Made by a program: the position numbers and the translations under genes. From Marinilabiliales bacterium (lineage in GTDB: Bacteria > Bacteroidota > Bacteroidia > Bacteroidales > ML635J-15), in NCBI GenBank assembly GCA_002869385.1, contig PKTB01000004.1, positions 373,770-437,769 on the forward strand: 64,000 bases of DNA. Reading direction: 5' to 3'. Shown piece by piece: positions 24,961 to 55,541 of the stretch; the first letter of the stretch is position 1; each line of letters starts with the position of its first letter. The notes under the pieces were generated by a model. That model ran no database searches and was not told the origin of the DNA. It saw nothing but the letters and a program-made list of their open reading frames with translations.

Positions 24961-24996
24961 AGTACTTAAAGTATTTAGAGTACTTGAAGTACTTAT
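24961..24996. repeat. AGTACTT-word repeat island, left flank of four-helix-bundle gene
   Basis: AGTACTTAAAGTATTTAGAGTACTTGAAGTACTTAT; inverted relative to 25367..25416. Confidence 0.8.
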
Positions 24997-25000
24997 AGTT

Positions 25001-25360
25001 TTACATATTTATTTTTGTTTTAATTGACGTGAAAATAGCTAATAGTTCATTTGCTTCAATTATCAAACTTGCAACCTCATCAGAATTCATCCAAGATGTT
25101 TGCTCTATTAACTCTAACCAATATCCTGTTTCGGAAGCCTCACCGGCACTAATAGATATTTTATTTTTAAAGTCTGCCTTACTTCTTGAATTGTTTGCTT
25201 CTCTATAGTTAGCTCCGACACTTGTTCCTGATTTTGCTAATTTATACCTGATTACTTTTGCCTCAGGAGTGTCTGGCAACTTTGTAGTAAGTTTTATTAT
25301 ATTCAAAGCAAAATCCTTTGTCCTTTTTTCAAGTTGTATTGCAAATTTTTTATTATTCAT
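25001..25360 (-). CDS. Four-helix-bundle protein (S23/23S rRNA intervening-sequence-protein-like)
   Basis: RTKDFALNIIKLTTKLPDTPEAKVIRYKLAKSGTSVGANYREANNSRSKADFKNKISISAGEASETGYWLELI is diagnostic for the family. Confidence 0.88.
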   Translation of the reverse strand: MNNKKFAIQLEKRTKDFALNIIKLTTKLPDTPEAKVIRYKLAKSGTSVGANYREANNSRSKADFKNKISISAGEASETGYWLELIEQTSWMNSDEVASLIIEANELLAIFTSIKTKINM

Positions 25361-25366
25361 ATTATT

Positions 25367-25416
25367 TAACTTTAAGTACTCTAAACTTTAAATACTTTAA
25401 GTACTCTAAGTACTTT
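25367..25416. repeat. AGTACTT-word repeat island, right flank of four-helix-bundle gene
   Basis: TTAACTTTAAGTACTCTAAACTTTAAATACTTTAAGTACTCTAAGTACTTTT. Its reverse complement contains AGTACTTAAAGTATTTA, identical to the left flank. Confidence 0.8.
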
Positions 25417-40036: not shown

Positions 40037-41719
40037 ATGAAATACCAGATTAAAATTAAAATATTATTAATTATTGGCTTTGCGCTATTATTTTTTGCTT
40101 GTGCTAAGCAGGTTGCGATAACAGGTGGCCCTAAAGATACTACACCACCTGTTATGATAGAGGCAGAACCTTTAAATGGCTCAGTAAATTTTTCAGAAAA
40201 AACAGTTTATGTTAGATTTAATGAATTTGTAAAATTAAACAGTCTTAATCAGAAGTTAATTGTTTCCCCTCCAATTGAAGAAGATCCAGTTGTAACCATT
40301 AAAGGAAAGGGGATTAAAATCAGTATTGATTTAAAGCTTTTAGAAGCTAATACTACTTATTGTTTAAACTTTAATGATGCTATTGTTTATAATAATGAAG
40401 GCAATGCTTTAAATAGTTTTGTCTATGCTTTCTCAACGGGTCCTCAAATAGATTCACTAAGTTTTTCTGGTCACGTATTAGATGCATTTACCAAGGAACC
40501 AATAACCGATGCTTGGGTCATTTTACATGATGTCTTTGCTGATAGTGTTATTAAAACATATGATACTGCATATATTACAAAAGTTGATGATAAAGGAGAG
40601 TTCTTCATTCCTTTTGTCAGAGATAATTATTATAAAATATATGCTCTAATAGACAATAATTATAATTATTTGTTTGATATTCCGGAAGAAGGAATTGCTT
40701 TTTTAGATACAGTATATCATCCTGGAGTTGAGACCTTGTCATCAACAGACACAGCAGGGAATGTTCAAAACAAGTACAGAAATTATCCTGATAATGTCGA
40801 ATTATTAATTTTTAAAGAAAAGAAACAAGCACAATTTATCAGTGAAAATAAAAGGTTAAAACCTGATTATTTGGAGTTTGTTTTTAATTCGACACAATAC
40901 GAAGAGTTTTCTGTTGATATTCCACAGGATAAAAATGCCGTAATTTATGCAATTGAGCAACCTGATACAGTAAGGGTATGGTTAAAAAATGAAGATTTGA
41001 TTAAATCAGATAGTATTGCAGTTTTTGTTGATTATATTGACCCTGTTTATACAGATTCACTTAGGTCAGATACACTGGTTTTTCGTCGTTCTGACTCTCA
41101 AGAAAGAGACAGTTTAATTGAAATAAGCACACCTAAAACAAAAGAACCACATAAACCATTAATGTTTGTTTTAAATACTCCGATTGATGAAATGAAGTCT
41201 GAGTTAATCTCTTTGGATTTAAAGTCAGATTCAACATTTATCTCAACGGATTTTAAAATTGTTCGAGATTCCTTAAACCCTTGCCATCTAATACTAGAAG
41301 CTGAAATTCTAGAAAAATCTGATTACAGACTTATAATTCAGGAAGGATTTGTTGTCACTACAAGTGGTTTGTCAAATACTATGGATACTTTGAATTTTAG
41401 TAGTTCTTCTACATTAGAATATGGTAATTTGAACTTAAGTTTTACAGATACTAATCAAAACTATATAGTTCAGTTATTAAGCGGGGAAAAGGTCGTTGCA
41501 GAAGTAAATTCAATAGATGGTGTATGCGAATTAAGGTTTTTGAAACCAGCAACATATAAAATTCGTGCTATAAAAGATTTAAATAATAATGCTCGTTGGG
41601 ATACGGGGGATTTTGATAAGCAAATACAGCCGGAACCCGTTTTTTACTACCCTGAAGAATATGAAATTCGTGCTAATTGGAATCACGAATTAGACTGGAA
41701 CCCAATTTTGAGGAGATAG
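40037..41719 (+). CDS. Ig-like (Big_5/SbsA-type) domain lipoprotein
   Basis: CAKQVAITGGPKDTTPPVMIEAEPLNGSVNFSEKTVYVRFNEFVKL. The start is probably ATG 40037, because the ORF-track start 40010 lies within a TAATTTTG box. Confidence 0.75.
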   Translation: MKYQIKIKILLIIGFALLFFACAKQVAITGGPKDTTPPVMIEAEPLNGSVNFSEKTVYVRFNEFVKLNSLNQKLIVSPPIEEDPVVTIKGKGIKISIDLKLLEANTTYCLNFNDAIVYNNEGNALNSFVYAFSTGPQIDSLSFSGHVLDAFTKEPITDAWVILHDVFADSVIKTYDTAYITKVDDKGEFFIPFVRDNYYKIYALIDNNYNYLFDIPEEGIAFLDTVYHPGVETLSSTDTAGNVQNKYRNYPDNVELLIFKEKKQAQFISENKRLKPDYLEFVFNSTQYEEFSVDIPQDKNAVIYAIEQPDTVRVWLKNEDLIKSDSIAVFVDYIDPVYTDSLRSDTLVFRRSDSQERDSLIEISTPKTKEPHKPLMFVLNTPIDEMKSELISLDLKSDSTFISTDFKIVRDSLNPCHLILEAEILEKSDYRLIIQEGFVVTTSGLSNTMDTLNFSSSSTLEYGNLNLSFTDTNQNYIVQLLSGEKVVAEVNSIDGVCELRFLKPATYKIRAIKDLNNNARWDTGDFDKQIQPEPVFYYPEEYEIRANWNHELDWNPILRR

Positions 41720-41760
41720 CCAATTGGCCCTTAGCTTTTAGCTGTTGGCAATTGGCTAAC
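41717..41760. repeat. TAGCCAAT/TTGGCT-word repeat island, left flank of second four-helix-bundle gene
   Basis: ATAGCCAATTGGCCCTTAGCTTTTAGCTGTTGGCAATTGGCTAAC. Confidence 0.75.
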
Positions 41761-41793
41761 TTGTGCAAACAATTAACCATTATATAATTTTAT

Positions 41794-42192
41794 ATGAGAA
41801 ATTTTAGAAATCTTGAGATTTGGAAAAAGAGTATTGAATTAGTTCAAAAAGTTTATAAATTAACGAAGAAATATCCGGATGAAGAAAAGTTTGGTTTAAT
41901 AAGTCAAATGCAAAGGGCGTCTGTTTCTATTTCATCAAATATTGCAGAAGGCTGTAGCAGAAACAGTGAAATTGAATTTAAACGATTTCTTGAAATTGCA
42001 ATTGGTTCTGCATTTGAATTGGAGACACAGTTAATAATAGGAAATAGACTTAATTATCATTCAGAAGTTATGCAAAGTGAAATGATAGAAGATTTGCATA
42101 GCCTTCAAAAGCAAACCAACTCTCTTATTACGAAAATTTCAAAAAGCCAACAGCCAATAGCTAACAGCCAACAGATAACAGCCAATAGCTAA
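41794..42192 (+). CDS. Four-helix-bundle protein (S23/23S rRNA intervening-sequence-protein-like)
   Basis: MRNFRNLEIWKKSIELVQKVYKLTKKYPDEEKFGLISQMQRASVSISSNIAEGCSRNSEIEFKRFLEIAIGSAFELETQLIIG. Confidence 0.92.
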   Translation: MRNFRNLEIWKKSIELVQKVYKLTKKYPDEEKFGLISQMQRASVSISSNIAEGCSRNSEIEFKRFLEIAIGSAFELETQLIIGNRLNYHSEVMQSEMIEDLHSLQKQTNSLITKISKSQQPIANSQQITANS

Positions 42193-42203
42193 AGACCAAT
42201 AGC
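42143..42203. repeat. TAGCCAAT/AACAGCC-word repeat island, right flank; overlaps the 3' end of the four-helix-bundle CDS
   Basis: AAAGCCAACAGCCAATAGCTAACAGCCAACAGATAACAGCCAATAGCTAAAGACCAATAGC; translated as SQQPIANSQQITANS*. Confidence 0.85.
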
Positions 42204-42223
42204 AAAAAATCCTTTCAAAATAT

Positions 42224-55486: not shown

Positions 55487-55541
55487 TTACTAATGGCTAA
55501 TGGCCAACAGCCAACAGCTAACAGGCATTAGCCATTAGTAA
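55487..55541. repeat. TTGGCT/GCCAACAG-word island with perfect 16-bp terminal inverted repeats; no internal gene
   Basis: TTACTAATGGCTAATG - GCCAACAGCCAACAGCTAACAGG - CATTAGCCATTAGTAA; overlaps the last codons of the minus-strand glycosyltransferase gene. Confidence 0.88.

Follow-up and report, generated by a model that had tools for sequence, protein, structure and literature searches.

A four-helix-bundle gene of the 23S rRNA intervening-sequence protein family between inverted heptamer arrays: the likely autonomous part of a widespread bacterial repeat system

Many bacteria have an excess of heptameric tandem repeats. Elhai et al. in 2008 reportedly described small repeats in cyanobacterial tandem heptamers. 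Other examples include GGGAATC in Xanthomonas and GGGGATT in Nostoc (PMC4692102) as well as TAACTGA in Beggiatoaceae and others (PMC4679880). Like the arrays described below, these are dispersed, mostly intergenic 7-nt arrays that are G-rich and partly arranged as inverted convergent pairs, but the papers found name no agent, and neither PMC4692102 nor PMC4679880 proposes a mobile element or a protein. In a literature search that stopped short of subscription papers, no paper linking the protein family PF05635 to heptamer arrays was found.

Three further systems come close to the locus. In the RAYT/REP system (including REPIN and BIME), a gene is located between inverted cognate repeats, and gene-less repeats are dispersed through the genome (PMC2817692, PMC3116915). 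The 23S rRNA intervening sequences carry the S23p open reading frame, which belongs to the same protein family as the gene studied here (PMC4990558; IVP in the following), and the homology of Avd, a protein of diversity-generating retroelements, to this family has been noted (PMC10053308). PF05635 has solved structures and is without an assigned function to date. One of these structures, 2GSC, originates from X. campestris, and this Xanthomonas relative is a pentameric ring (PMC4990558).

Here, we describe an IVP gene bounded by two inverted arrays. With modest confidence, we take it to be part of a widespread two-part repeat system that comprises autonomous IVP genes with their arrays and non-autonomous solo arrays, for which binding and copying of the cognate word are inferred. 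The gene is found in a window of 64,000 nucleotides (the whole stretch of DNA that was analysed) from a Marinilabiliales bacterium, with the following features:

41794..42192, + strand: IVP gene (23S_rRNA_IVP, S23 family, four-helix bundle), 132 aa, profile matches to PF05635 and TIGR02436
41717..41760, + strand: left array, G-rich word family TTGGC/TTAGCTG, inverted match to the right array (shuffle test)
42142..42206, - strand: right array, period 7, AACAGCC/AATAGCT as read on the + strand, direct-repeat family D1, spacing 14, period score 16

Both are degenerate 7-nt tandem arrays. The left one has its G-rich strand directed inward, and the right one, with the tandem units AACAGCC, AATAGCT, AACAGAT and so on, is inverted relative to it. 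The arms pair best between 41723-41757 and 42152-42186 (35 nt, 80% complementary), and their local-alignment score of 35 was reached by none of 1000 dinucleotide-style shuffles (mean 18.1, maximum 29), which bears out the inverted islands around a four-helix-bundle gene that a preliminary description had read from the letters. The upstream gene ends inside the left array, with its TAG stop at 41717-41719. The IVP gene has a lipoprotein-like gene on one side and an mfd-like one on the other and is not within an rRNA gene. At no congener locus compared does the mfd-like gene follow the upstream gene, so there is no empty site for the focal element.

The right island had also been said to supply the tail and the stop codon of the protein. 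Indeed, the IVP frame runs into the right array and ends in ...ISKSQQPIANSQQITANS, so that the last ~14 codons and the stop are array DNA. The suggestion that this tail is a functional peptide was rejected, given that 17 of the 77 shared-word elements read at least 9 nt into the array and that the resulting peptides are mostly unrelated. The array-encoded tail is incidental.

The focal protein matches PF05635 with an E value of 5.9e-37 and 126.6 bits (curated cut-off 33.8) and TIGR02436 with 6.2e-35 and 119.7 bits (cut-off 24), and a Pfam search returned PF05635 and a sub-threshold bAvd hit alone. Its predicted model (pLDDT 97) superimposes on 2GSC with a TM of 0.93 and an rmsd of 1.1, and by analogy with this solved relative, the protein probably forms a pentameric ring. 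The model also shares the fold of Avd (TM 0.80 to 4DWL), but sequence identity to Avd is 8% and the host genome (about 93% complete) has no reverse transcriptase match (PF00078, RVT_1), on which ground a retro-mechanism was rejected. No catalytic motif was recognised in the focal IVP protein, which counts against our reading.

A total of 178 genes of the family were surveyed across the genus, the order, and many phyla (100 order loci from 61 genomes and 78 public-scan loci), with thresholds that, like the set of 16 solo arrays below, derive from one pass. Shared-word arrays flank 131 of them, 98 in inverted and 33 in direct orientation; the other 47 showed neither in the shared-array test, and these copies without a clear shared array also count against our reading. 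At the order loci, the inverted scores of a gene's own pair of flanks had a median of 30, whereas mismatched pairs averaged 18. The control open reading frames in the same loci had a top score of 31, and 0 of 115 passed the inverted threshold; the arrays thus belong to the protein family. Matching anatomy was found in the public scan among its usable loci from Bacteroidota, Planctomycetota, Verrucomicrobiota, KSB1, Acidobacteriota, Patescibacteria, and others, of which some taxon labels may be wrong because many loci are MAGs. Furthermore, all seven IVP copies on plasmids (cyanobacteria, Azospirillum) have period-7 arrays.

Two regularities were unexpected. The period of the arrays is mostly 7, less often 8, and rarely 9, 10 or others, irrespective of the word, and the G-rich strand of inverted elements is directed inward at both ends (86 vs 5 elements for the 5' arm, with skew above versus below zero; 88 vs 6 for the 3' arm). 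Neutral slippage, in which ordinary tandem repeats stand by chance beside a family of small genes, would agree with the variable copy number of the arrays and with words that drift quickly between species; we nevertheless regard it as highly improbable, as it does not account for a single gene family with one word on either side in inverted orientation, for the fixed inward direction of the G-rich strand, for the preference of 7 nt over 5-6, or for words that occur at many sites of one genome and are restricted to it.

The inverted arms could alternatively form an RNA stem around the open reading frame that is maintained for the sake of RNA processing or mRNA control, and the element would then be related to the rRNA intervening sequences but stand on its own. 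The protein family is the same (PMC4990558), a PF05635-family frame is bordered by complementary sequences in both cases, and the focal transcript folds better than its shuffles (z -3.3) with the arms paired. On the other hand, IVP elements are located between protein genes, occur in many copies per genome and consist of tandem words, and their arms bear no sign of kept RNA pairing: mismatches between the arms were G-U in 86 and A-C in 110 cases (p 0.10, in the opposite direction). Upkeep of the arms as an RNA stem was rejected for want of a G-U wobble excess, and because the mismatches lack this excess, they point to arms that are kept by DNA rather than RNA pairing. Since the 33 direct elements cannot form such a stem and solo single arrays would be left unexplained, an RNA-stem origin seems rather improbable.

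Another copy of the gene is present in the same window:

25034..25327, - strand: second IVP domain, PF05635 E 5.6e-19
24961..25000, no strand assigned: array of the AAGTACTTA 9-nt word, on the downstream side of the second IVP gene
25375..25414, no strand assigned: array of the inverted AAGTACTT word, on the upstream side of the second IVP gene

The layout is that of the focal element, but the word, AAGTACTT, has 9 nt; it also forms a solo array near position 315530 of contig C18 of the host genome (G000). The preliminary description had contrasted two families of repeat words; their units are 7-mers and 9-mers, and these families are just two of many. The host genome encodes 11 PF05635 genes, nearly all with element-specific flank arrays, in about 11 different words. 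As a side observation, a palindrome, CCCTGAGC(T/C)TGTCGAAGGG, found in the array of one element (L004) and at one empty site (L129, genome G008, intergenic), represents a separate repeat family.

Arrays are also found without an IVP gene, among them one of the focal word in the window:

55490..55538, no strand assigned: solo array of the focal word with a short hairpin (CTAATGGCTAATG...CATTAGCCATTAG), exact pattern hit G000:C3:429272

This array is located within a hairpin that is nearly perfect and, as the two genes beside it converge, could act as a terminator for both. In the window and in 400 kb of host genome sequence, 12 of 16 solo arrays, several of which are copies of one family and hence non-independent, matched the IVP flanks of their own genome best or were tied or nearly so when compared to all 178 elements (11 of them own); 11 of these were best matches, and the array in the window tied with L144. 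A pattern of the focal word hit the host genome 100 times, at about ten sites, and 25 congeners 3 times, and that of L007 had 230 versus 0 hits, while the word of another congener occurred 90 times in its genome of origin and 21, 11, 2, and 1 times in relatives. Control patterns read backwards had 0 hits in the host genome. Cognate words dispersed in this way fit the recognition or mobilisation that had been suggested for the protein. Similarly, 10-nt solo arrays of the L041 word are present in the genome with this element, which has a 10-nt word. Two observations count against our reading: three solo arrays are of a GTTAATCG-type word, for which no IVP gene was found in the host genome, and the most abundant word of the host belongs to L007, an IVP gene whose frame is interrupted by an in-frame TAG.

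The main rival explanation holds that the arrays came first, spread by another process, and that IVP genes insert into or between them as safe sites. Flank words would then match the solo arrays of the genome automatically, because the genes insert into existing arrays. The 33 direct elements are as expected of an interrupted array. Most solo arrays stand singly. Among close opposite pairs, 7 are directed inward versus 1, and inward-facing pairs are possible targets. Arrays of two word families also sometimes adjoin, i.e., arrays cluster. Against this, most flanks are inverted and not direct, and a single genome holds eleven genes with about eleven words and an IVP gene for 5 of the roughly 6 solo word families seen. 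Moreover, sampled genomes without IVP genes were without arrays: five IVP-bearing members of the order had 12 arrays in about 380 kb, whereas none of period 7-10 was found in about 360 kb from five IVP-less members (a small sample of contig ends). As regards adjoining arrays, solo arrays of the L001 word stand next to GGTGAC-word arrays at at least four places of G000 (C1:305934/306163, C4:24720/24804, C18 near 121064, and C19:126945/127099), as if arrays favoured sites near other arrays.

The descent of the words bears on the same question. When repeat words were compared to protein similarity, as the preliminary description had proposed, the two were correlated at unrelated loci (Mantel r 0.19; mean 0.00 and maximum 0.125 over 500 permutations). 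Above 60% protein identity, many pairs at loci without shared neighbours have a common word; GAGATTT, for example, is common to loci of Pedobacter, Mucilaginibacter, Daejeonella, Flavihumibacter, and Sphingobacterium. Below about 50%, words are unrelated. As words follow protein identity at unrelated loci, the arrays apparently move along with the gene and are not taken over from the target, contrary to what the arrays-first explanation implies, even if related genomes may share words and so produce part of the correlation. The proteins of one orthologous locus are 75-100% identical, yet between species the word has switched, on the left and on the right together; the arms thus evolve jointly and more quickly than the protein. 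The proposed co-evolution of protein and flanking DNA is thus borne out in so far as the word tracks the protein, but a strict matching of the two is not, given the changes at the orthologous locus and the unrelated words at low identity. Likewise, word variants did not strictly track the local IVP in a test of close species: three variant words, all of a single 8-nt family, are present in 12-13 of the 13 genomes of a close subclade and in none of the rest, and this lack of a strict match to the local IVP counts against our reading.

At one junction, between a nifU-like gene and a gene denoted GGGtGRT, 4 of 12 close species have an array-gene-array block of 515-565 bp that abuts the codons of the neighbours, and the other 8 have 25-146 bp instead. 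Arrays and gene are gained or lost as one block. The empty junctions are mostly without an array, which also speaks against arrays that precede the gene; one of the 8 holds an apparent remnant, a pair of arrays. The arrays-first explanation is disfavoured by the mostly inverted orientation of the flanks, by the correlation of word with protein, and by the lack of arrays in the samples from IVP-less genomes, and we consider it unlikely. In two families of the order, IVP proteins that are 94% identical (L092 and L096) are encoded beside a type I restriction subunit-like gene in conserved DNA, which suggests transfer together with a restriction-gene island.

The two-part system that we favour is best read as working like RAYT/REP with an unrelated, Avd-like protein. 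In both, the gene is flanked by inverted cognate repeats, cognate repeats are dispersed, their abundance is tied to the presence of the gene, and repeat and gene evolve together. IVP, however, is a PF05635 four-helix bundle and not a Y1/HUH transposase, and its repeats are period-7 tandem arrays and not REP palindromes. None of the five Y1 transposase genes of the host genome has such arrays in its flanks, and RAYT as the agent of the arrays was rejected on that account; the Y1-type transposase genes L360, L361, and L362 of this genome are flanked by REP-like repeats of a different kind, inverted or direct. It is by such failed tests of membership, and not by a proven mechanism, that the elements are set apart from RAYT/REP, rRNA intervening sequences, and retroelements.

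In the proposed system, the autonomous part would be an IVP gene bounded by two copy-specific arrays of 7-nt (sometimes 8-10-nt) words, usually inverted, and the non-autonomous parts would be solo arrays of the same word that are scattered through the host genome and depend on the gene. An IVP ring would bind arrays of its cognate word, with DNA as the most likely form, and would promote the copying or insertion of arrays together with host enzymes. Exchange between the two arms may keep them alike while the word drifts.

Judging from the sequences, we take the IVP protein to be the probable driver of a kind of mobile repeat to which it had not been linked before. The link between IVP and arrays rests on tests that could have failed, as the word matches the gene, the genome, and the period, and arrays are absent from the IVP-less samples. 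If true, it would give the large orphan family PF05635 a function, indicate where bacterial heptamer repeats come from, and place rRNA intervening sequences in a broader setting. A more far-reaching idea, which we put forward tentatively and would sooner doubt than adopt, is that an IVP ring without a known nuclease motif is the engine of the bacterial 7-nt repeat excess, which has long lacked an explanation. It would recognise heptamer runs and spread them while new words arise, and the mechanism, be it transposition or the writing of repeats, would have no described counterpart.

Some IVP genes have conspicuous neighbours. At L066 (2282-3220), the 3' array runs in frame into a downstream alpha/beta hydrolase-like open frame, which suggests that arrays can feed the coding ends of neighbour genes. 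On plasmids, one IVP gene (L312) is located between cas6 and cas4 in Pseudanabaena, and another (L313) between two ribonucleotide reductase genes in Nostoc.
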